From Rhodanobacteraceae bacterium (lineage in GTDB: Bacteria; Pseudomonadota; Gammaproteobacteria; Xanthomonadales; Rhodanobacteraceae): a DNA stretch of 39,129 nucleotides. The stretch is taken from the NCBI GenBank assembly GCA_021325475.1, contig JAJPHA010000030.1, positions 1 to 39,129 of the forward strand, in the 5' to 3' direction. The notes beneath the pieces are model-generated. The model worked only from the letters and a program-made list of their open reading frames with translations. It ran no database searches and had not been told where the DNA came from. Below are positions 21,926 to 33,044 of this stretch, piece after piece (position 1 is the first letter of the stretch; each line of letters opens with the position of its first letter). A program made the position numbers and the translations under genes.

Positions 21926-22023
21926 GCCCCCTTGAGTCAAGGGGGCGATCAAACCCTTGCTGCGCAAGGGTTTGATGGGGGTTGTGGAGGTGCGGCGCCG
22001 CGGCCGAAGACAGGAACATGGGG
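21926..22023 (+). repeat. Dispersed palindromic repeat, copy 1
   Basis: About 98 bp, roughly 90% identical to copy 2 at 28606-28703. It has a first hairpin (CCCCCTT / AAGGGGG), then a second with arms ATCAAACCCTTG and CAAGGGTTTGAT around a 5-nt loop CTGCG, then GGGGGTTGTGGAGGTGCG, a GC-rich variable part and GCCGAAGACAGGAACATGGGG. It lies in the 319-bp gap (21765-22083) between the thiolase and the PHA-system gene. I see no gene in the rest of that gap. The loop is the reverse complement of the loop in copy 2. Confidence 0.93.
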
Positions 22024-22083
22024 TTTGATCCAATTGGTAGCGGAGAGCGGCAACGCGATCCGGGTCGCATCGGAATGATGTGG

Positions 22084-22368
22084 TCAGACGGGCGTGCCGA
22101 AATGGCGCACCAGGTGATTCTCGATCTCGCTTTCGATCATCGGCTTGAGCGCGCTCAGCAGGAAACCGAGTTCGGCGCGCACCCGCACTTCCGCCTTGGT
22201 GACGTGGATCTGACCGTTCACCCCGCTGCGACGGAAATGCAGCGTATCGCCGTCCCATTCGGTGGCCAGGCCGAACTTGCGCCCGAGATCGACGGCGGTT
22301 TCCTCGACCACGGCCTTCGCGGCTTTGAGCGATTGCCGGTGACGGTGGCGGATGTCGATCGTGGCCAT
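22084..22368 (-). CDS. Polyhydroxyalkanoic acid system family protein
   Basis: 94 aa. It matches the small PHA_gran_rgn family in length and pattern: an N-terminal MATIDIRHRHRQSLKAAK, a central FGLATEWDGDTLHFRRSGVNGQI, VRAELGFLLSALKPMIESEIENHL at the C-terminal helix. Family members occur near polyhydroxyalkanoate genes in many proteobacteria and also widely where PHA synthesis is not evident. The biochemical role is unknown. The start at 22368 is preceded by AGGGAA on the minus strand. It is divergent from the cupredoxin-kinase locus, sharing a 113-bp gap. Confidence 0.85.
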   Translation of the reverse strand: MATIDIRHRHRQSLKAAKAVVEETAVDLGRKFGLATEWDGDTLHFRRSGVNGQIHVTKAEVRVRAELGFLLSALKPMIESEIENHLVRHFGTPV

Positions 22369-22481
22369 GCAGCAGGTTCCCTGGCGGCGCGGCGCGCGCC
22401 GCGGTGGCTTTGCTATGATGCCGCACCGACCGCATGCCGTGCCAGGCGTGGCGCGGCCGACCTGTAGCCGAAGGGGGACCC

Positions 22482-23144
22482 GTGCGCGCGCTGGCATTCG
22501 TTCTGTGGCTGCTCCCGATCTCGTCCGGCGCGGCGGCGACGATCGCGGGCCACATCGACCTGTTTTCCGAAGGCAAGCCGCTGCGCGCCGAGGAGGCGCA
22601 GGACACGATCGTCTACTTCCGGCCGAAGGTGCCGCTCGCGGCCGTGCCGGTCACGCCGCCGCAGGCGATGAGCACGCTGCGCAAGCAATTCGTGCCGCGG
22701 GTGCTGGCCACCACGGTCGGCAGCGAGGTGCGGTTCCCGAATCAGGACCCGATTCTTCACAACGCCTTCTCGACCTCCAAGGACAATGCTTTCGATGTCG
22801 GCCTGTACGGGCAAGGCGACGGCCAGGCGGTGACCTTCGCGCACGTCGGCTACGTGCGGGTGTATTGCAATGTGCACCATTCGATGATCGGTCACATCCT
22901 GGTGCTGGACACGCCGTATTTCGTGCGGCCCGACGCGAGCGGCAATTTCCGCCTCGCCGACGTGCCGGCGGTGGAGGGCGATCTCGTCGTCTGGAGCGAA
23001 CGGGCGCCGCCCTGGCACAGCGTGATCCACGCCGGCGCCGACGCGCCGGTCAGCGTGCAAATGGAGCTCACCCAGCGGCGCATTCCGACCCACATGAACA
23101 AGTTCGGCAAACCGTATGGCAGAAGCAGTGACGGCGGATACTAG
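22482..23144 (+). CDS. Periplasmic cupredoxin-like protein (methylamine-utilisation-type)
   Basis: 220 aa from a GTG at 22482, which has an AAGGGGGA ribosome-binding site and yields a clean signal peptide (ALAFVLWLLPISSGAAA). The mature protein has a cupredoxin domain with a full type-1 copper set: H93 in PILHNAFS and C129, H132 and M135 in VYCNVHHSMIGH. A C-terminal extension (about 140-220) is beta-rich. Similar proteins are annotated as methylamine utilisation proteins, but no mau genes are here. The last 29 nt overlap the start of the receptor kinase gene, so the two are translationally coupled. The protein may supply a copper or redox signal to that kinase (inference). Confidence 0.85.
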   Translation: MRALAFVLWLLPISSGAAATIAGHIDLFSEGKPLRAEEAQDTIVYFRPKVPLAAVPVTPPQAMSTLRKQFVPRVLATTVGSEVRFPNQDPILHNAFSTSKDNAFDVGLYGQGDGQAVTFAHVGYVRVYCNVHHSMIGHILVLDTPYFVRPDASGNFRLADVPAVEGDLVVWSERAPPWHSVIHAGADAPVSVQMELTQRRIPTHMNKFGKPYGRSSDGGY

Positions 23145-25848
23145 CGAACGCGGCGGCGGCCGCTTCAGTCTGCCGCTGGCGATCAAGTTCTTCGTCGGTT
23201 CGGCGTTCCTGATCGCACTTGCCGTCGGCGCGGCGGTGGTCGTCACCTATCTGCAGGGCGACCGCATCGCCCGGCGTGCCGTGGACAACGCGCTGGCGAC
23301 GAGCTCGGCGGTGCAGAAGGAATTCGAGCAGAATCGGCTGGAGCAGTTGCAGCTCAAGCTGCAATTGATCGCCGCCGATCCCGGCACCGCGAAGTACGTC
23401 GCCCAGGCGGCCGGCACTACCGCGAACCTGCCGGGCTTGAGCGAGAGCAACGAGCTCGACACCAAGTCGATTCCCGATCTGCTGAAGGAGCGCCAGAGCC
23501 AGTTCGGCTTCGATCTCGGCATCGTGCTCGACGCCAAGGGCAACGTGCTCGGGCGCAGCGACCAGACCGAGGCCTATCAGGAATCGCTCGCCACCGATCC
23601 GCTGGTGCGTCCGGCGATCGACAAGGTCCAGCCGTTCAGCGGCTACTGGCGGCTGGGCGACCGCCTCTACCAGGCTGCGATCATGCCGCTGGCGCAGGAC
23701 CAGGATCTGGTCGGCTTCCTGCTGCTGGCGCAGCGCGTCGGCGACGAGCTGTCGACGAAGATGGAGAAGATCAGCGGCGCCGAGATCGCCTATTGGCTGC
23801 CGCAGGGCGACCAGTTGCGGCTGGTCGCCAGTTCGCTCGACGAGGCCTCGCGCAAGGCGCTGCAGGAAGCCGCCTCGACCCAGGTGCCGGAGCTGATGGC
23901 CGCGGTGAAGGCCGGCCATTCGCTGCCGCGCCTGACGTTGCATTTCGCCGGTCAGCAGTGGGCCGCGCAGCTGGCGCCGACCGCGGCCGAGGGCGAGGGC
24001 AGCCTTGGCGCCGTGCTGGCGCTGACCTCGACCGACAAGATCGTGGCGAGCTATCGCGACATTCTGAACTGGGTGTTGATCGGCGGCCTGGTGTCGATGG
24101 CGATCGCGCTGTTGCTGTCCTACGTGCTGGCCAAGGGCATCCTGCGCCCGGTGCGCGCCATGGCCGAAGCGGCCGAGCAGGCCGCGGCGGGCAACTACAA
24201 GACGCGGATCGGCCTCAAGGGCGCGGACGAGCTGGCGCGCCTGTCGCGCGCTTTCGATTCGCTGCTGTCGGATCTGCGCGAGAAGAGCGACATCGAGGGC
24301 TACGTCAGCAATCTGTCGCGCTTCCTGCCCGATCCGGGACGTGAGCCGGCCGCGCCGACGCCGACGAAGGCGCCGACCGTGGCCGCGCCGGAGCCGGCGC
24401 GGCGCGAGACCTTGAGCCTGCTCGGCCTGGAATTCCGCGAACTTGCCGCCGATTCCTCGGCTTCGGCCGAGGAGGCGCTGCAGAGCTTTCAGCGCATCGC
24501 CGCCGCGGTGAAGACGGCCGCGGGCGAGGCGTGCATTCGCCAGAACGCCGGAGCGCGGTTCGTGCTCGGCTTCGCCGGCGTGGCGCGTTGGGCGGCGGCG
24601 TTGCGGGCACTGGCGCAGATCCGCCAGTGGGCGGACCGGGAGGGTCTGGCGGCTGTGCCGGCGGCGCTGGTCTCGGGCACGCTCGTGACCGGCGGTACCG
24701 TCGATGGCGGCACGGCGCTGTTCGGCGTGGCCTGTGCGCATCTGGACCGATTGATCCCGGAGGCCGCGCCCGGGCAGACGCTGCTCACCCGGGCGGCCGG
24801 CGAGGAGCTCAAGACCGCGTTCGGCGAATCGCGTCTGGCCGTTGCCACCGGCGCGGTCTCCGGCAAACGGTTCTACGCGCTCGCGGCGACCGCGCTGGCC
24901 GATCTGCCGGCCGCCGCGTCGGCGCCGTCGACCGCGGCGGCGGAGAGCGAGGCGCCGACGGTCGTGCCGGCAGCGAAATCGTCGGCCCGCATCACGCCCA
25001 CGCGCGGCGGGCGCGCGATGCGTCTCGAGCCCGGCACGGTATTCGGCGGCCGTTACCGCATCCTGTCCGAGCTCGGCGCCGGCGGCATGGGCGTGGTCTA
25101 CAAGGCCCACGATCTCGAGCTCGACGACGTGGTCGCGCTGAAGATGCTGAAGCCGAGCGCGCTGATGGATCAGGAACAGCTCGATCGGCTGAAGAGCGAA
25201 ATCAAGCTCGCGCGCATGATCACGCATCCCAACGTGCTGCGCACGTTCGATTTCGGCGAGGTCGAAGGGCATCCGTACATCTCGATGGAGTACGTGCGCG
25301 GCCTGACCCTGCGCTATCTGCTGAACGAGACCAAGCGCATTCCGTACTCGGCGGGATTGCGCATCGCGCGCCAGTTGTGCGCTGGCCTGGCGGCGGCGCA
25401 CGAGGTCGGCGTGCTGCACCGGGACATCAAGCCGGAGAATCTGATCCTGCAGCAGACCGGCAACGCCAAGTTGATGGACTTCGGCATTGCCCGGCCGATC
25501 CGCCGCGGCGTGAAGGGGCACACTGAACCCGGCACCTTCCTCGGCACGCCGAACTATTCGCCGCCCGAACAGCTCGCCGGCGAGGAGCTCGACCAGCGCG
25601 CCGACATCTATTCGAGCGGCGTGCTGATGTGCGAGATGTTCTGCGGCAAGTTGCCGTTCAGCGGCAGCAACACGCTGGAAATCTACATCGCCCAGACCCA
25701 AGCCGCGCCGATCAAACCCTCGGAGCACTGGCCGGAAATTCCGCCGGCGCTGGAGGCCATCATCCTGCGTTGTCTCGAACGTAGGCCCGAGGACCGGTTC
25801 GCCTCGGCGAACGAGCTGGCGCAGGCATTGGCCAAACTGCGGGCTTGA
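23116..25848 (+). CDS. Transmembrane sensor Ser/Thr protein kinase with HAMP and cyclase-like domains
   Basis: 910 aa. The order is: TM1 at about 24-45, a periplasmic sensor region of about 270 residues (Cache-like in size), TM2 at about 318-338, HAMP at about 339-392, a degenerate nucleotide-cyclase-like domain at about 430-590, an Ala/Pro/Thr linker, and a PknB-type kinase at about 645-910. The kinase looks active: G-loop GAGGMGVV (654-661), VALK Lys676, HRDIKPEN (D770) and DFG (788-790), with an activation segment TEPGTFLGTPNYSPPEQ. This places a eukaryote-like kinase at the output end of a chemoreceptor-style module, where a histidine kinase or cyclase would normally sit. It overlaps the cupredoxin gene and is followed by porin and FHA genes. 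Confidence 0.93.
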   Translation: MAEAVTADTSERGGGRFSLPLAIKFFVGSAFLIALAVGAAVVVTYLQGDRIARRAVDNALATSSAVQKEFEQNRLEQLQLKLQLIAADPGTAKYVAQAAGTTANLPGLSESNELDTKSIPDLLKERQSQFGFDLGIVLDAKGNVLGRSDQTEAYQESLATDPLVRPAIDKVQPFSGYWRLGDRLYQAAIMPLAQDQDLVGFLLLAQRVGDELSTKMEKISGAEIAYWLPQGDQLRLVASSLDEASRKALQEAASTQVPELMAAVKAGHSLPRLTLHFAGQQWAAQLAPTAAEGEGSLGAVLALTSTDKIVASYRDILNWVLIGGLVSMAIALLLSYVLAKGILRPVRAMAEAAEQAAAGNYKTRIGLKGADELARLSRAFDSLLSDLREKSDIEGYVSNLSRFLPDPGREPAAPTPTKAPTVAAPEPARRETLSLLGLEFRELAADSSASAEEALQSFQRIAAAVKTAAGEACIRQNAGARFVLGFAGVARWAAALRALAQIRQWADREGLAAVPAALVSGTLVTGGTVDGGTALFGVACAHLDRLIPEAAPGQTLLTRAAGEELKTAFGESRLAVATGAVSGKRFYALAATALADLPAAASAPSTAAAESEAPTVVPAAKSSARITPTRGGRAMRLEPGTVFGGRYRILSELGAGGMGVVYKAHDLELDDVVALKMLKPSALMDQEQLDRLKSEIKLARMITHPNVLRTFDFGEVEGHPYISMEYVRGLTLRYLLNETKRIPYSAGLRIARQLCAGLAAAHEVGVLHRDIKPENLILQQTGNAKLMDFGIARPIRRGVKGHTEPGTFLGTPNYSPPEQLAGEELDQRADIYSSGVLMCEMFCGKLPFSGSNTLEIYIAQTQAAPIKPSEHWPEIPPALEAIILRCLERRPEDRFASANELAQALAKLRA

Positions 25849-25920
25849 TTTTCAGTCGCTTATGGAACATTCTTGAAGCGGGTTGACAAGCCGACGCCGC
25901 GGGCGTACTGGGGATTCGCC

Positions 25921-27003
25921 GTGTTCCATCGTCGTTTCGGCATCTTGCTGTTGGTACTGTGCGGGCCGGCATTCGCCGCCGGCGAGGCGATCGAATCCAT
26001 GGAGGAACCGGCGAGTTCGCCGTGGACCTGGTTCGGCGACGTGCTGCTGCGCGAGGATCATGTCCACGGCATTCCGCGCACGGTGGAACCCAACATCCAG
26101 CGCGTGTTCGGGCGCGGCCGTTTCGGTGTGCTCTACGATCCGATCCCGACGCTCGAATTCGGCGGCGCGATCAAGCTCGCGGCCGCGAGCAACAGGAATG
26201 CCGAGGATCGCAGCTACAACTTGAACGAGCGCAGCAACGACATCGCCCTCGATCAGTTGTTCGTGCGCTGGCGGCCGACCGAGGCGACGTCGCTGCTCGC
26301 CGGCAAGGCCGTCTTCCCGCTCGAATTGACGCCGCTGGTGTGGGACCAGGATCTGCGCCCGGTGGGCGTGAGCGTGGCGACCTCCGCGCCGGTGAATCCC
26401 AGCGATCGCTTGAGCCTCGTCGCCGGCTACTTCAACGGCAATCTGCCCTACGGCGACGATTCGCGCATCGGTGCCGTGCAGGCGGGCTACCACTGGCACG
26501 AGGGTCAGCCGGCGAGCGCGAGCGTGTTGCTCGCCTATCTCGATTTCAGCAGTCTCGAGCAGCTCACCCTGCAGGGTCTGGCGCGCAGCAACCGCCGCGT
26601 CGGCACGAAGCTCGTGAGCGATTATCGCCTGCTGGATCTGCAATTCGTCGGTCGCCTGCGGCCCGGCGATTGGCCGCTCGAGGCGCGCGTGGATCTGCTG
26701 CGCAATCTCGGTGCCGACGATCAGCGCGACGCCGGCCGGGTCAGTCTCGTGCTCGGCGACCGCCGCGTGCCGCGCGGCTGGGAGCTCGGCTTCGCCGCGC
26801 AGCGTATCCAGCGCGACGCCGCGATGGCGGCGTTCAACTCCGACGAATGGTGGTTCCACAGCTTCGCGCGCGGCGTGATGCCGTGGGTCGGCTACGGTTT
26901 CAACGCCACCTGGAGCGCGCGCCTGGCCGCGTTCCACGAGCGGCGCGACGGCGCGAGCCAGCACACCGACACGATCCTCGTCGACGTCAATGCCCAGTGG
27001 TGA
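25921..27003 (+). CDS. Porin-like outer-membrane beta-barrel protein
   Basis: 360 aa from a GTG at 25921, chosen because it gives a compact signal peptide (HRRFGILLLVLCGPAFAA) with GGGGA upstream. A TTG at 25873 would lengthen it implausibly. The mature chain alternates polar and hydrophobic residues in many strands, is rich in aromatic and Arg/Asp residues, and ends in an aromatic residue (VDVNAQW), all typical of outer-membrane barrels. It resembles the 'putative porin' family. The substrate is unknown. It lies 72 bp after the kinase gene and 51 bp before the FHA gene on the same strand, so it is probably part of the same unit. Confidence 0.75.
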   Translation: MFHRRFGILLLVLCGPAFAAGEAIESMEEPASSPWTWFGDVLLREDHVHGIPRTVEPNIQRVFGRGRFGVLYDPIPTLEFGGAIKLAAASNRNAEDRSYNLNERSNDIALDQLFVRWRPTEATSLLAGKAVFPLELTPLVWDQDLRPVGVSVATSAPVNPSDRLSLVAGYFNGNLPYGDDSRIGAVQAGYHWHEGQPASASVLLAYLDFSSLEQLTLQGLARSNRRVGTKLVSDYRLLDLQFVGRLRPGDWPLEARVDLLRNLGADDQRDAGRVSLVLGDRRVPRGWELGFAAQRIQRDAAMAAFNSDEWWFHSFARGVMPWVGYGFNATWSARLAAFHERRDGASQHTDTILVDVNAQW

Positions 27004-27031
27004 ACCGCGACGGCGAGGCGGCTGTGCTAGA

Positions 27032-27045
27032 GTCTCGCGCGAGAC
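27032..27045. promoter_or_regulatory. Perfect 14-bp palindrome before the FHA gene
   Basis: GTCTCGC-GCGAGAC is an exact inverted repeat located 10 bp upstream of the FHA-protein start. It could be an operator or an mRNA hairpin limiting ribosome access. No clear ribosome-binding site is visible between it and the ATG. Confidence 0.35.
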
Positions 27046-27054
27046 CGTCGGACG

Positions 27055-27927
27055 ATGGCCGTAAGCATGCGCCTGTGTTTTCCGAATCGAGAACATGCCG
27101 ACGTGCTGCTCGCCCCGGGCGATACGGCCATCGGCTCGGCGAGCGACAACGCGATCGTGCTCGCGTTGCCCGGTGTGGCCGCGCACCACGCCAGCATTTC
27201 CGTGCGCGACCGCAGTTGCGTGCTGGTCGTGCGCGACGCGCAGGCGCGTACCCACGTCAACGCGCGTCCGGTGCGCGAAAAGGCGATCCTGCGACTGGGT
27301 GACGTGGTCAGCCTCGATACGGTGCAGTTCATGCTCAAACCCGACCGCGACGACAGCATCCGCACCAAGGTGCCAGCGCAGAAGCCCTCCACCCCGGAGT
27401 CCGCCGAGCCCGGCGCGACGCGCCTGCGGCTGACGCCGCCGAAAGTGGTGCTGCGCGGCGTATCGGGCGCGTACTTCGGCAAGATCATTCCGGTGCGCGG
27501 CAAACTCCTGATCGGCCGCGGCAGCGATTGCGATCTGATCCTGGACGAGCCGGAGATGTCCCGCCACCACGCGGTGATCGAGAACTTCGGCGACGGCATC
27601 TACTTGCGCGATCTCGGTTCGGCGAACGGCACGTTCGTCAACGGTGTGCAGGTGCGCGACGCCGTGCTGCATCCCGACGACCAGATCGCCTTCGACCGCA
27701 ACCGCTTCCTGCTCGAAGCGCCGGGACTGCCGGGTCGCGCGGAAACCGGGCCGGCGTCGGAGCACGACGTGCCGAACATCACCCAGACCATGCAGGCGAT
27801 CCGCGTGCCCGGTGCGGCCCCCGCCGGAGGCAAGAGCGAGCGCAACCGCAACGACATCTGGTGGCTGATCGGGGCCGCGGCGCTGATCGCGATCGGACTG
27901 GCCGTGTTGCTGCTGGTCCGGATCTGA
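27055..27927 (+). CDS. Double FHA-domain membrane protein
   Basis: 290 aa. FHA domain 1 (about 20-95) is degenerate: it keeps AIGSASDNAIVLALPGVAAHHASI but lacks the NG motif. FHA domain 2 (about 150-220) is canonical: IGRGSDCDLIL (R155), SRHHAVI (S169, R170) and LGSANGTFVNG (N191). Its phosphothreonine pocket is therefore complete. A C-terminal TM helix at about 267-288 anchors it with the FHA domains in the cytoplasm. The linker 227-262 contains TQTMQAIRV, a Thr-rich stretch that kinases of this type often phosphorylate. The adjacent Ser/Thr kinase is the obvious partner. The start at 27055 is uncertain, and an ATG at 27067 is possible. Confidence 0.9.
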   Translation: MAVSMRLCFPNREHADVLLAPGDTAIGSASDNAIVLALPGVAAHHASISVRDRSCVLVVRDAQARTHVNARPVREKAILRLGDVVSLDTVQFMLKPDRDDSIRTKVPAQKPSTPESAEPGATRLRLTPPKVVLRGVSGAYFGKIIPVRGKLLIGRGSDCDLILDEPEMSRHHAVIENFGDGIYLRDLGSANGTFVNGVQVRDAVLHPDDQIAFDRNRFLLEAPGLPGRAETGPASEHDVPNITQTMQAIRVPGAAPAGGKSERNRNDIWWLIGAAALIAIGLAVLLLVRI

Positions 27928-27939
27928 GCGGCGTCGCGC

Positions 27940-28569
27940 TCAGCCGCGTTGCAGCGCCGCGCGCGCGGCGTTGCGCGGCCGCGGCAGGCGCGCCAGCATG
28001 AGCAGCGCAAACACCACGGCGTAGATGGCCGGTTCGCGGTGATCGGCCTTCACCAGCCAGAGGAAATGCAGCACGGCGAACGCGGCGGCGACGTAGACCA
28101 GCCGATGCAGCCGCTGCCAGTGGCGGCCGAGGCGCCGCATCGTCGCGCGCGTGGAGGTGAGCGCGAGCGGCACCAGCAGCAGCCAGGCGCCGAAGCCGAC
28201 CGTGAGGTACGGCCGCCGCGCGATGTCGCCGAGCAGTTGCGACCAGAAACCGCCGAGATCGACGGCGACGTAGACGGCCGCGTGCAACGTGGCGTAGAAG
28301 AACGCGAACAGCCCGAGCATGCGACGCACGCGGATCAGCGGCTGCCAGCCGGTGGCGCGACGCAGCGGCGTGACGGCGAGCGTGGCCAGCAGCAGGCGCA
28401 GTGCCCAGTCGCCGCTGCGGTGTTCCAGTTGCGCCACCGGATCGGGGCCGAGCGTGCCGTGGCCGATGTCCCAGGCGAGCATTGCCAGCGGCAGCAGGCA
28501 GGCGACGAACAGCGGCGGTTTGCCGGCGGCGACCGGGTCGTGCCTCAGCCGGGCGAGTACGCGACGCAT
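27940..28569 (-). CDS. msrQ: MsrQ, heme-binding membrane subunit of the MsrPQ methionine sulfoxide reductase
   Basis: 209 aa, about six membrane helices of the ferric-reductase-like fold. Conserved histidines for heme are visible in ATLHAAVYV, in RLHRLVYVAAAFAVLHFLWLVK, and in the first periplasmic region (DIGHGTLG). The RRMLGLFAFFYATLHA segment is a good family marker. MsrQ passes quinol electrons to MsrP in the periplasm. The ATG at 28569 has AGAGG upstream. The gene lies downstream of msrP on the same strand, but a 151-bp gap holding repeat copy 2 separates them, whereas these genes are usually tightly linked. Confidence 0.93.
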   Translation of the reverse strand: MRRVLARLRHDPVAAGKPPLFVACLLPLAMLAWDIGHGTLGPDPVAQLEHRSGDWALRLLLATLAVTPLRRATGWQPLIRVRRMLGLFAFFYATLHAAVYVAVDLGGFWSQLLGDIARRPYLTVGFGAWLLLVPLALTSTRATMRRLGRHWQRLHRLVYVAAAFAVLHFLWLVKADHREPAIYAVVFALLMLARLPRPRNAARAALQRG

Positions 28570-28605
28570 TTGCGAAACCTCTCAACAAGTGGACGATGCC
28601 TTAAA

Positions 28606-28703
28606 GCCCCCTTGAGTCGAGGGGGCGATCAAACCCTTGCGCAGCAAGGGTTTGATGGGGGTTGTGGAGGTGCGACCTCGCAGCCGAAGACAGGCACATG
28701 GGG
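28606..28703 (+). repeat. Dispersed palindromic repeat, copy 2, between msrP and msrQ
   Basis: This is the partner of the repeat at 21926-22023 in the same orientation relative to the window. The sequence differs by a G for A in the first hairpin, by several changes in the GC-rich middle, and by the loop of the second hairpin, which reads CGCAG instead of CTGCG, its exact reverse complement. The arms ATCAAACCCTTG / CAAGGGTTTGAT are unchanged. It lies within the probable msrPQ transcript, read as its complement, so both hairpins form in the mRNA between msrP and msrQ. Confidence 0.93.
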
Positions 28704-28720
28704 GCTGGATCGGCTCTCCC

Positions 28721-29704
28721 CTAGAAATCCCGGCGCAGATCCATGCCGGCATACAACGGCGCCACCTGTTCGGCATAACCGTTGAACGGCAACGTCGCGA
28801 TGCGATTGCCGAACAGGGCAAGGCCGCTGCCGGCGATGCGGCGCTCGGTGCGCTGGCTCCAGCGCGGATGGTCCACCTCGGGGTTGACGTTGGCGTAGAA
28901 GCCGTACTCCTCCGGCGCGGCGACGTTCCAGGTCGTGCGCGGCTGCGTTTCGACGAATTCGATGCGCACGATCGCCTTGATCCCCTTGAAGCCGTACTTC
29001 CACGGCACGACCAGGCGCAGCGGCGCGCCGTTCTGGGTCGGCAGTTCGTGGCCGTACATGCCGACCGCGAGCAGCGTCAGCGGATGCATCGCCTCGTCGA
29101 TGCGCAGGCCCTCGCGGTACGGCCAGTCGAGGATCGGATAGTGCAGGCCCGGCATTTCGTCCGGCCGCGCAACGCTGGTGAAGGCGACGAATTTCGCGCG
29201 CGAGGTCGGCCGGAAGCGCCGCAACACCTCGCCGAGCGGCACGCCGACCCACGGGATCACCATCGACCAACCCTCGACGCAGCGCATGCGGTAGACGCGC
29301 TCCTCGAGCGCGTCCGGTTTGACCAGGTCCTCCAGGGCGAAGCGTCCAGTGATTTCGGCATGGCCGGCGATGTCCACGCTCCACGGCCGCGGCCGGAAGC
29401 GCGCGCCGTTGGCTGCGGCATCGCCCTTGCCGGTGCCGAATTCGTAGTAGTTGTTGTAGTGGCTGGCGTCGCGGTAGCGCGTCTCGGCCTCGCCGCGGGC
29501 GTAATCGGTGCGGCGCGCGATCGGCAACGGCCTGCCCGCCGGCGCTTCCTCCGCCGCCGTTTCCGGGGCCGGTGCGGCGCCGCAGCCGGCGGCGAGTCCG
29601 GCCGCGCCGAGACCGAGCAGTTTCAAGAGCTCGCGCCGGCGCCGGTACACGGATTCCGGTGTGATTTCGTCGGCGGGGACAGGGTGGCGGCGCAGGAAAT
29701 GCAT
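28721..29704 (-). CDS. msrP: MsrP, periplasmic molybdopterin methionine sulfoxide reductase subunit
   Basis: 327 aa, close to the usual 330-335. A Tat-type signal [20 protein letters not shown] (21-40) is present. The sulfite-oxidase-fold domain shows [12 protein letters not shown], the molybdenum-ligand Cys142 in [15 protein letters not shown], and [17 protein letters not shown]. MsrP repairs oxidised methionine in envelope proteins using electrons from MsrQ. A cysteine within the signal (GC at 40-41) could mimic a lipobox, but Tat cleavage is more likely. The start at 29704 gives [20 protein letters not shown], which matches family N-termini. The gene is divergent from the GGDEF-EAL gene with 127 bp between. 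Confidence 0.95.
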
Positions 29705-29763
29705 GATCGGTTCCGGTGGTGCACGCAGCGAAAGACCGGCGTCGGGCGGAAGAAATTCCAGGT

Positions 29764-29794
29764 TTGACGTCGTCTGGCACCGCGGCGCTATACT
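29764..29794 (+). promoter_or_regulatory. Probable promoter of the PAS-GGDEF-EAL gene
   Basis: TTGACG (29764-29769) and TATACT (29789-29794) are separated by 19 bp, slightly long for sigma70. The -10 is the best match in this GC-rich gap, about 40 bp upstream of the ATG at 29832. Confidence 0.45.
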
Positions 29795-29831
29795 GGCATC
29801 GCGCTGGGCAGGGGGGTTGGAACCCGAGGGC

Positions 29832-32800
29832 ATGAACCTCGCAGCGGCTTTCCGGTTTTCCTCGAGTCTGGTGGCGATCATGGACGCCGCCGACGGTCGC
29901 ATCGTGGACGTGAACCCGGCGTTCGAGCAGGCGACCGGCTACCGGCGAGACGAACTCGCCGGCCGACGCACGGTGGAGCTCGATTTCTGGCCGAACCTCG
30001 AGACCCGCGCGCGGATCTGGGCGCACCTGCGCAGCGAACGCTGCGTGCGCGGCGAGCGCGTGGTGTTTCGCGCCCGCGACGGCTCCTTGCGCTCGGCCAC
30101 GCTGTATTGCGAGATGTTCGAGCACCGCGGTGCCAATTGCGTGTTCGCCGTATTCCAGCAGGTGGAGGAGGCCGGCCGCGAACCGGCCGCGATCAATCCC
30201 GATCCGGGCAGCTACCGCGCGTTGTTCCTTGCCGCCGCCGAAGGTCTGTACCGTAGCCTGCCCGCCGGCGGCTGGATCGACGTCAATCCGGCGCTCGCGC
30301 GCATCTTCGGCTACGAATCGCCGGCGGCGATGCTGATCGATACCGGCGGTCGGCGCGCGAGCGAGTTGTACGCCGACGCCGAGCAGGCGGCGCGCCTGTA
30401 CGCGCTGCTCGCCCGCGACGGCCATTTCGAGAACCAGCGCGCCAGGGTGCGTCGTCGTGACGGGTCGCTGGTCTGGATTGCCGAGAACGCGCGCGCGGTG
30501 CGCGACGACGCGGGCCAGGTCCTGTTCTACGAAGGGTCGGTCGTCGACATCACCGCCGAGGTCGAGGCGGAAAACCGTCTGCGCCAGTCCGAGGCGCTCT
30601 ACAAGACCCTGGTCGACAACTGCCGCGACGGCGTGTTCCTTGCCCTGCACGATCGCATCGTCTTCGCCAACCAGGCGCTCGCCGACATCCTCGGCTACAC
30701 CACCGAGGAACTGCGCGGTCGCGCCTACATGGATCTGGTGGCGCCGGAATCGCTCGCCGAACAGCAGGTGCGCCGCGCCGCGCGCGGCGACGGCTCGCGG
30801 TCGGCACAGGACTACGAGGTGCTGGCGCTGCGCAAGGATGGCTCGCGACGCCTGCTGCGCGTGCGCGCCGCGGCGGTGGAATTCGACGGCGAAATCGCCG
30901 CGACCGGCACGATCCAGGACATCACCGACGACCGTCGCCAGCAGCAGGCGCTGGCCGAGGCCGAGCAGAAATATCGCGCCTTGTTCCAGAACGCGGTGAT
31001 GGGCATGTTCCAGAGCCATCCCGACGGTCGCCTGCTGGAGGCGAACGACGCGCTCGCGCAGATTCTCGGCTACGCCGACGCCGCGGCGCTCAAGGCGAGT
31101 GTTGGGCACATGTCGCAGATCTACGCCGATCCGGCCGAGCGCGAACGCATCGTCGCCGATCTGCTCGCGCAGGGGCGCCTGCGCGGCGAGTGCTTCTTCG
31201 CGCGCCGACGCGACGGCAGCACGGCGGTGGTCGAGATCAACGCGCACCTGGTGCGCGATCCTGCCGGCGCGGTGCTCTACGTCGAAGGTTCGGCGCAGGA
31301 CATCACCGCCCGGCGCGCGGCGGAGCAGGCGCTCAAGCACTCCGAGGCGCGCTACCGCACGCTGGTCGAGCACAGCCAGGTCGGCGTGTATCTGATGCTT
31401 GACGACTGCTACACCTACGTCAATCAGGCTTTCGCCGCGATGTTCGGTTACACCGAGGAGGAACTCGTCGGCGCCAACTTCCGCATTCTCGTGCCGCCTG
31501 AATCGCGCGAGCACCAGGAGGACCGCTACCAGCGCCAGGTGCGCGGCGAGGGCAACCGTGGCGACTACGGCATCGTGCTGCAGCGCAAGGACGGCAGCCG
31601 CATCGAGGTGGTGATCAGCGCCGGCACGGTCGAGATGGACGGGCGGCTGTACACCTGCGGCACGATCCGCGATGTCACCGAGCAGCATCGCATCCAGCGC
31701 CAGCTCGAACACAACGCCAGCCACGATCTCCTGACCGGACTGCCCAACCGGGTGGTGTTCGAGCGCGAGCTCGCCGCGGTGATCGCCGAGGCGCGGCCGC
31801 GCGGAACCTGCGACTACGCCGTACTGTTCCTCGATCTGGACGGCTTCAAGCTGGTCAACGACAGCCTGGGCCACGCCAGCGGCGACGTGCTGCTGGTGCA
31901 GATCGCCGATTGCCTGCGCTCGCACCTCGGCAACCAGTGCCTGGTGGCGCGGTACGGCGGCGACGAATTCACCCTGCTGCCGCACGGGCCGTGTTCGCGC
32001 GCGCGCGCCGAACAGCTCGCGCAGCGGGTGCTGGCGTTGCTGGCCGGTTCGTTCGACGTCAACGGCCATCGCGTGTTTTCCGGCGCCAGTCTCGGCGTCG
32101 TGCTCGGCCGTCCGGAATACCAGTCGCCGGAACAGGTGCTGCGCGACGCCGACACGGCGATGTATCGCGCCAAGGCCCGCGGCAAGTCGGCCTACGTGAT
32201 CTTCGACGACGCCATGCACGCCGCGGCGCGGGCGCGGCTCAAGATCGAGACCGAGCTGCGTTTCGCGCTCGAGCGCGGCGAATTCCGGGTGTACTACCAG
32301 CCGATCGTGGATCTCGGCAGCGGCGCGGTGTGCGGTTGCGAGGCGCTGGTGCGCTGGCAACATCCCGAGCGCGGCCTGCTGCTGCCGGCCGATTTTCTCG
32401 GTGTGGCCGAGGAGACCGGCACCATCGTCGCCATGGACTGGTGGGTGCTGGAACACACCTGCCGGAATCTGTTGCGCTGGCAGCGCCGCTTTCCCGCACA
32501 CGCGCAGGTGCGCGCCAACGTCAATCTGGACGAGCGCCAGTTCGCCGAGCCGAACGTGGTCGCGACGCTGCGCGACGTGCTCCGGCGCACCGGCATCGAT
32601 CCCGCCAGTCTCACCCTCGAGATCACCGAAACCGTGTTCCGCCGCGGCCGCGCCGAGGCCGAAGCGACCCTGCACGGCTTGCGCGAGCTCGGCGTGGCGC
32701 TGGTGGTCGACGACTTCGGCACCGGCTACTCGTCGCTCGATTCCTTCGCCACCTCGCCGTTCAACGCGCTCAAGGTGGATCGCAGCTTCGTGCGCGACAT

Positions 32801-33044
32801 GGTCACGAATTTCCGCCACCGCGCCATCGTGCGCACCATCGCCCGCTTCGCGGAGGAACTCGGTCTCGGCCTGATCGCCGAAGGCGTGGAGCTGCCGGAG
32901 CAGGCCGAGCTGCTCGCGCAGTTGGGCTGCAATGGCGCCCAGGGCTTCCTGTACGCGCCACCGCTGCCGCTGGAGGCATTCGAGCAGGTGCTCGATCGCG
33001 GGCTGACCGGATACGGCCGCGCCGCCGCCAACGCTGTTGCCTAA
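29832..33044 (+). CDS. Multi-PAS cyclic-di-GMP protein with GGDEF and EAL domains
   Basis: 1070 aa, no membrane segment, so cytoplasmic. Five PAS domains in series (about 8-115, 127-245, 256-366, 380-495 and 507-615) each begin with a YRALF/YKTLV-like motif and contain an N-x-A...GY core. GGDEF follows at about 627-795 with an intact ARYGGDEF (709-713). The inhibitory RxxD site is absent from its usual place. The EAL domain (about 805-1055) keeps EALVRW (837-839), [22 protein letters not shown] and AEGVEL, so both cyclase and phosphodiesterase residues are present. The start at 29832 has only a poorly spaced GAGGG, so an alternative nearby start is possible. Confidence 0.95.

Follow-up and report, generated by a model that had tools for sequence, protein, structure and literature searches.

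Four genes that are read from the same strand in a Rhodanobacteraceae genome, encoding a copper protein, a receptor serine/threonine kinase, an outer-membrane barrel and an FHA-domain protein, raise the question of whether they form one signalling unit, what such a unit would sense and which protein would read its output. The window, which is the whole stretch of DNA that was analysed (39,129 nucleotides, contig JAJPHA010000030.1), contains these genes as four plus-strand open reading frames (Table 1), whose closest neighbours are all minus-strand genes, thiolase and PHA_gran_rgn before the four and MsrQ and MsrP after them. Gene calls and domain searches bear out the initial annotation in this respect, and the overlap that it had reported between the cupredoxin and kinase genes is exactly 29 nucleotides by coordinates. 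The cupredoxin frame is open from 22434, with 22482 as the likelier start; the porin gene begins with TTG at 25873, an internal GTG at 25921 being also possible; and the start of PHA_gran_rgn at 22368 was inferred from domain limits, its frame being open to 22497. A consensus promoter scan of 22000-28800 gave no promoter site, and terminator-like sites from the consensus scan numbered 3, with 3.3 expected. Past MsrP, positions 29508-33044 encode a PAS-rich GGDEF-EAL protein, and a GGDEF-EAL match near MsrP occurs again in L002, L003, L037, L206, L122, L123 and L144.

Table 1. Features of the locus and its flanks, in window coordinates
Feature	Position	Strand	Basis
Cupredoxin, type-1, predicted to be secreted, with C-terminal CarboxypepD_reg-like domain	22482..23144	+	ORF, ligands, fold match
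Receptor Ser/Thr kinase, 910 aa	23116..25848	+	ORF, Pfam domains, catalytic residues
Periplasmic Cache-type sensor of receptor, between two membrane spans (limits approximate)	23257..24030	+	dCache_3/CHASE4
HAMP domain of receptor	24124..24282	+	PF00672, 45.8 bits
Degenerate class III cyclase-like domain of receptor	24403..24915	+	Foldseek, hhalign
Protein kinase domain of receptor	25054..25815	+	PF00069, 185 bits
Outer-membrane barrel, Porin_5-like	25873..27003	+	PF16930, 29.1 bits
Double-FHA protein with membrane anchor, canonical domain 2, degenerate domain 1 and linker motif ITQTMQAI	27055..27927	+	
Candidate promoter P1, extended -10 TTGCTATGAT, upstream of cupredoxin	22410..22419	+	sequence reading
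Candidate promoter P2, extended -10 TGCTAGAGT, before FHA	27025..27033	+	sequence reading, recurrence
PHA_gran_rgn gene, divergent neighbour (flank)	22084..22368	-	PF09650
MsrQ (flank)	27940..28569	-	NF003831
MsrP (flank)	28721..29902	-	NF003767

The window cupredoxin searched alone matches no Pfam or NCBIfam family, and at the loose limit of E 0.1 it still matches neither Copper-bind nor CarboxypepD_reg, which were found at that limit in 33 and 29, respectively, of 37 aligned cupredoxins. The type-1 copper ligands (His, Cys, His and Met) are invariant in all 37. The best matches of the cupredoxin profile in the PDB are copper nitrite reductases, amicyanin and plastocyanin, and the predicted fold resembles pseudoazurin (Foldseek E 2.2e-5) and plastocyanin, in a model with a mean pLDDT of 72 and low confidence around the first His. 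By its ligand set and predicted fold the protein is classified as a putative type-1 cupredoxin, and its N-terminus suggests that it is secreted.

Pfam recognizes three regions in the receptor: HAMP, a weak dCache_3 match (27.1 bits, cut-off 25.7) and the kinase domain. Among 31 receptors examined, dCache_3 was matched in the sensor region of 24 and CHASE4 in that of 23 (E 0.01), and HAMP was present in 30. The residue set expected of a Hanks-type serine/threonine kinase (Lys, Glu, HRD Asp, Asn and DFG Asp), represented in the window by K676, E695, D770, N775 and D788, is retained in 38-39 of 39 kinases, the exception apparently being L070, which has no Pfam kinase match; by this set the window protein is predicted to be such a kinase. 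Identity as a PASTA-type PknB kinase was rejected, as the kinase scored 298.6 bits with NF033483 (curated cut-off 450), aligning at residues 640-907 to positions 2-267 of the 563 in the profile, and had no PASTA match in Pfam. A defence system was also considered and set aside; the PADLOC matches sit on the kinase domain, belong mostly to PD-T4-6 models and were taken as generic.

In residues 430-600, between HAMP and the kinase, Pfam recognizes no cyclase in any of 29 members, and the resemblance of this stretch to PDB profiles is weak (best E 0.017). When the receptor model was searched with Foldseek, all of the best 50 matches listed were nucleotide cyclases; the mean pLDDT of this model is poor overall (56.6), most of residues 430-600 lying in blocks of 55-86. 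An hhalign comparison with sister receptors whose cyclase domain is intact (E 4.4e-5, probability 69%) pairs a window Glu with the first of the two metal-binding aspartates of class III nucleotide cyclases, and a window GA with the GD of the intact domains. These comparisons support a degenerate class III cyclase fold as the predicted middle domain of the receptor. Cyclase activity is unlikely because the metal-binding aspartates are replaced, and the domain may be what is left of an earlier state in which the receptor signalled through a cyclase. The architecture that the initial annotation had proposed for the kinase is recovered in its HAMP, kinase and cyclase-like domains and, weakly, in dCache_3, with the correction that the cyclase-like domain is degenerate.

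Whether the cupredoxin and the receptor belong together can be judged from other genomes. The cupredoxin is present in 84 of 200 genomes of the order, representing 41 of 69 genera. In 40 regions from 37 genomes of the order, chosen by cupredoxin among 100 non-window places listed (all at least 89 bits), the cupredoxin is in every case (40/40) followed by a same-strand receptor match no more than about 0.6 kb away. The outputs of these receptors are a kinase in 34, a degenerate kinase in one, GGDEF-EAL in two and none recognised in three, one of which (L073) ends its open reading frame with the sensor match and lay outside the Pfam scan. In the class, where 69 of 274 genomes have a cupredoxin match, 40 regions chosen among the places listed include 24 with a receptor match within 2 kb of the cupredoxin: directly downstream in 21, about 1.9 kb downstream in one and about 1 kb upstream in two. 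Outputs in these 24 are GGDEF-EAL (15), kinase (five), class III cyclase (three) and histidine kinase (one); the other 16 cupredoxins have no receptor match in the fetched stretch. The sensor profile used to find receptors includes HAMP, and weaker matches may be only generic kin; among the six first loci, the match in L006 and L007 was confined to the kinase domain or the HAMP region, so that both were set aside, and L046 duplicates L005. Because the order of cupredoxin and receptor recurs, the locus is more than a chance arrangement, and the pairing of these two proteins that the initial annotation had put forward is upheld in the 40 order regions. Two irregular cases were seen: in L086 a GGDEF-EAL receptor beside the cupredoxin is split over three open reading frames and looks broken or misassembled, and large frames that have no Pfam match follow the kinase at L057:5404-6840, L058:7135-8871 and L059:7075-8400, three loci with no porin match.

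A DUF3034 barrel and a truncated globin share the fetched stretch with the cupredoxin in 19 of 84 loci, one of which (L102) has no receptor, and DUF3034 occurs alone in one more. Loci with both genes comprise L126, L128, L129 and 19 between L063 and L102, and the N-terminus of the truncated globin, judged on L126 and L129, resembles a signal peptide. These neighbours bear on two other readings of the cupredoxin. It could be an electron carrier for a periplasmic enzyme, with a receptor that senses something else and a locus that is shared since the same condition calls for both. Such a role would suit the PDB matches of the cupredoxin profile, the 19 loci with barrel and globin and the 16 of 40 class cupredoxins that have no receptor near, but it accounts poorly for a pairing that spans four output types and all 40 order regions; moreover, the cassette encodes no partner enzyme, and MsrPQ is a neighbour only, many loci having MsrQ and MsrP beside FHA without the cassette. 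The electron-carrier role is considered unlikely, if still worth weighing. Alternatively, the signal could be a gas or nitrogen oxide instead of copper, the cupredoxin working with a periplasmic globin and copper serving only the redox step. The joint occurrence of DUF3034 and truncated globin, which recurs on three of four named plasmid stretches, speaks for this idea, yet neither gene was seen in the window's locus, the single Bac_globin match of the window genome lies on another contig, and the window genome has no DUF3034 match in a search that likewise gave none in any control genome. Gas sensing appears distinctly improbable. The preferred reading, that the cupredoxin is the input partner of the receptor and that copper or redox state would be what is sensed, is retained in what follows.

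The third gene of the series keeps the same company. The Porin_5 match of the window protein exceeds the cut-off of 22 bits and is partial (160-327 of 535), and Porin_5 was matched in 14 of 16 aligned porins (E 0.01). Strong porin matches (>180 bits) occur in 26 of 200 genomes, every one of which also holds the cupredoxin (26/26); the two share a contig in 23 of them and are split between contigs in three draft genomes. The porin thus belongs with the cupredoxin and kinase, as had been proposed. In G041 the cupredoxin, kinase and FHA genes are present and a porin match is absent. The porin and the DUF3034 barrel were tried as one family and rejected, there being no profile similarity (E 0.27).

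The FHA gene has a different history. Where FHA does not have the cassette as a neighbour, it faces PHA_gran_rgn head to head in 6/7, 15/15 (L130-L144) and 34/35 loci of three sets that share a few genomes; the exceptions are L119 in the set of seven and L194, which has no PHA match, in the set of 35, and the arrangement is likewise missing from L147, examined with L130-L144. In three genomes of the window's genus the alignment with the window breaks off at 22425 or 22437 and picks up again at 27017 or 27066, so that the piece missing from them is the cupredoxin, kinase and porin. In G110 about 27 kb separate the cassette from FHA, in G003 the two are far apart, and FHA is kept in G040 although that genome has no PF00069 match. 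Thus, the cupredoxin, kinase and porin genes are a cassette that lies between PHA_gran_rgn and an older FHA gene, and several changes of cassette state are needed on the FHA tree. In G660, a draft genome, two copies of the FHA gene were seen (L162 on C149; C41), one of them a few kb from the cupredoxin.

The FHA gene also has, in the window's lineage, its own conserved candidate promoter-like element. The motif TG[CT]TANA[GT]T occurs 32-56 nucleotides before FHA (mostly about 35) in 52 of 63 genomes of the window's family (f1) and f4, where letter shuffles give an expectation below one; the motif was picked after viewing the sequences, and this comparison is a guide only. Elsewhere it precedes FHA in 4/12 genomes of f2, 0/9 of f12 and 0/1 of f11. 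As for P1, the candidate upstream of the cupredoxin, TTTGCTATGATGCCGCA is also found between PHA_gran_rgn and FHA in the cassette-less genome G654. In f12 the FHA element is absent from all nine and FHA begins close behind the porin, which makes co-transcription of porin and FHA likely there. A single, uniform four-gene operon is rejected because FHA adjoins PHA_gran_rgn where the cassette is missing and, in the window's lineage, has its own promoter-like element. The initial annotation had presented one locus of four genes and had named independent scattering of the genes in relatives, or separate promoters and unrelated regulation for each, as the evidence that would overturn it; for FHA, an older resident that persists where the cassette is missing and carries its own putative element, such evidence was found in part, and the claim of one uniform locus of four is not supported.

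What then ties FHA to the kinase is its binding site. Pfam finds two FHA stretches in the fourth protein. FHA domains that read phosphothreonine carry the residues GR, S-x-x-H and N; domain 2 of the window protein has them (GR/SRH/NGT), whereas domain 1, with GS and AAHH, does not, so that the double-FHA reader described earlier is confirmed as to its second domain and corrected as to its first. Identity as the SctD/YscD ring protein of type III secretion was rejected (TIGR02500, 40.4 bits against 86). The GR, S-x-x-H and N residues of domain 2 were scored in 85 distinct genes, the duplicates L002 (=L161) and L003 (=L167) being omitted. Genomes in which the cassette adjoins FHA have an intact site in 22 of 29 cases, those with the cassette elsewhere in 2 of 12 and those without the kinase in none of 44, kinase-less meaning no receptor-kinase match at E 1e-90 in genomes of which the larger were scored for part of the candidates and some are incomplete. 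Five unresolved genes were assigned by reading the junctions, L147 by the absence of a porin in its stretch; before that step, and with the duplicates, the counts were 21/29 linked, 3/5 unresolved, 1/9 unlinked and 0/44 with no kinase, and without the duplicates 20/27 linked. The relay from kinase to FHA protein suggested in the initial annotation gains from this pattern, in which the phosphothreonine site tracks the kinase.

FHA paralogues were intact in 7/7 of a first sample and in 20/20 from kinase-less genomes (kinase absence being established by search in 17 and by absence of the cupredoxin in three). Both the window genome (L150, G000:C137) and G012 (L151, G012:C2) have a double-FHA paralogue, its domain 2 intact, no more than 3 kb from a different Ser/Thr kinase. 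A strict rule is disfavoured by seven of the 29 linked genomes, in which the site has decayed in spite of the kinase; L167, from the window's genus, is among them. Decay is seen as well in three kinase-less members of that genus (L163-L165), whose nearest relatives are mostly intact. In L130-L143 the FHA genes with decayed sites still read as open frames, some of them close to MsrQ and MsrP; retention of decayed genes hints at a second, phosphate-independent role. The linker between FHA domain 2 and the membrane span contains TQ[TVAS] in 27/29 linked, 7/12 unlinked and 14/44 kinase-less genes and in 0/7 paralogues, compared to 1.9, 0.5, 1.4 and 0.2, respectively, expected from shuffled linkers. 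The window's version falls inside the Thr-rich segment 230-262 singled out in the initial annotation, and by analogy with OdhI and GarA the motif is a candidate phosphorylation target.

Shared descent could produce the same pattern if FHA were an ordinary neighbour whose site decays by lineage, unrelated to the kinase. Independent pairs on FHA trees were few (0-3 informative, nearly all in the expected direction) and not significant (p 0.25-1), the gene survives where the cassette is missing and is preceded by a promoter-like element of its own, and the seven decayed linked genes fit this account as well. It is opposed by the contrast of 0/44 with 22/29, by L163-L165 set beside their mostly intact relatives, by the intact paralogues of kinase-less genomes, and by a likelihood test of correlated change between kinase presence and the intact site, which gave p 0.0002 on a tree made without the FHA2 columns and p 0.0008 with all columns, several fitted rates being at the set bound and few events possibly driving the result. 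The same test for linkage gave p 0.056 and 0.20. The fitted rates place loss of the kinase after decay of the site. The association is partly one of lineage, and the model test supports a tie to the presence of the kinase, linkage not being firmly supported. An explanation by lineage and no more is judged rather improbable; the working interpretation remains that domain 2 is maintained as a reader of the kinase.

The window may be understood as the Ser/Thr-kinase form of a modular signalling pair that connects periplasm and cytoplasm. The secreted cupredoxin would inform the receptor's Cache domain of how far it is loaded with copper or of its redox state; HAMP would relay the change through the spent cyclase domain to the working kinase; and FHA domain 2 of the membrane-anchored protein would read the phosphothreonine made by the kinase, a coupling backed by correlated decay, perhaps on the TQT linker of the FHA protein itself. 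The porin, which is linked to this pair, probably feeds or protects the periplasmic step, and the cassette is probably transcribed from P1, with P2 as the candidate element for FHA. The model as a whole, a cupredoxin-reporting Cache-HAMP receptor kinase that is read by FHA domain 2 and encoded by a cassette plus an older FHA gene, is favoured with slightly better than even confidence. A wider proposal is tentative, possible without being probable: that there is a general class of receptors in which a separate secreted cupredoxin is the input subunit and metal or redox state the signal, the Cache-HAMP receptor having been refitted in evolution for output through a cyclase, cyclic-di-GMP, a histidine kinase or a Ser/Thr kinase, the last of these recruiting a local FHA reader whose site is retained only as long as the genome has that kinase. 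Of what is new, two points stand strongest: cupredoxin and receptor form a pair whose outputs are exchangeable, and the FHA reading site tracks the kinase. If the model is right, Ser/Thr kinase signalling in bacteria gains a copper or redox input, this receptor kinase acquires a partner and a phosphorylation motif that can be tested, and a function is suggested for proteins labelled 'methylamine utilization protein'; a natural experiment is also at hand in the numerous related genomes that either have or lack the kinase and in which the FHA binding site tracks it.

No paper on the pairing of cupredoxin and receptor was found in the open-licence literature, which does not imply absence from print; the passages of PMC6769254 that were considered contain nothing on it, and no open-licence paper was found that joins the label 'methylamine utilization protein' with GGDEF or truncated hemoglobin. 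That label is a record annotation, carried on plasmids of Caballeronia and Comamonas (the Novosphingobium record has another label), where a related cupredoxin directly precedes an EAL-domain protein in three of four stretches and is followed by a short Cache-domain fragment in the fourth. These plasmid pairs differ from the window in having the GGDEF-EAL type of output and, on three of the four stretches, in carrying DUF3034 and truncated globin where the window has kinase, porin and FHA genes. With amicyanin, plastocyanin and pseudoazurin the window cupredoxin shares its predicted fold and four type-1 ligands, and its C-x2-H-x2-M spacing is that of amicyanin; unlike these small blue copper proteins it comes with a receptor gene and has an additional, CarboxypepD_reg-like domain, and most kinase-type cupredoxins have a conserved C-terminal tail. 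Residues 430-600 of the kinase share the predicted fold of class III nucleotide cyclases, from which they differ in the replaced aspartates. A further parallel is offered by the PknB-type receptor kinases with their FHA substrates GarA, OdhI and FhaB, which have in common with the window a transmembrane kinase and an FHA protein with a Thr-bearing linker as candidate target; the window FHA protein matches the FhaB and OdhI models below their cut-offs, as the window kinase does NF033483, over its kinase part only. Compared to those kinases, the window receptor has a Cache-type sensor, encoded beside a separate copper protein, and a degenerate cyclase domain between HAMP and the kinase.
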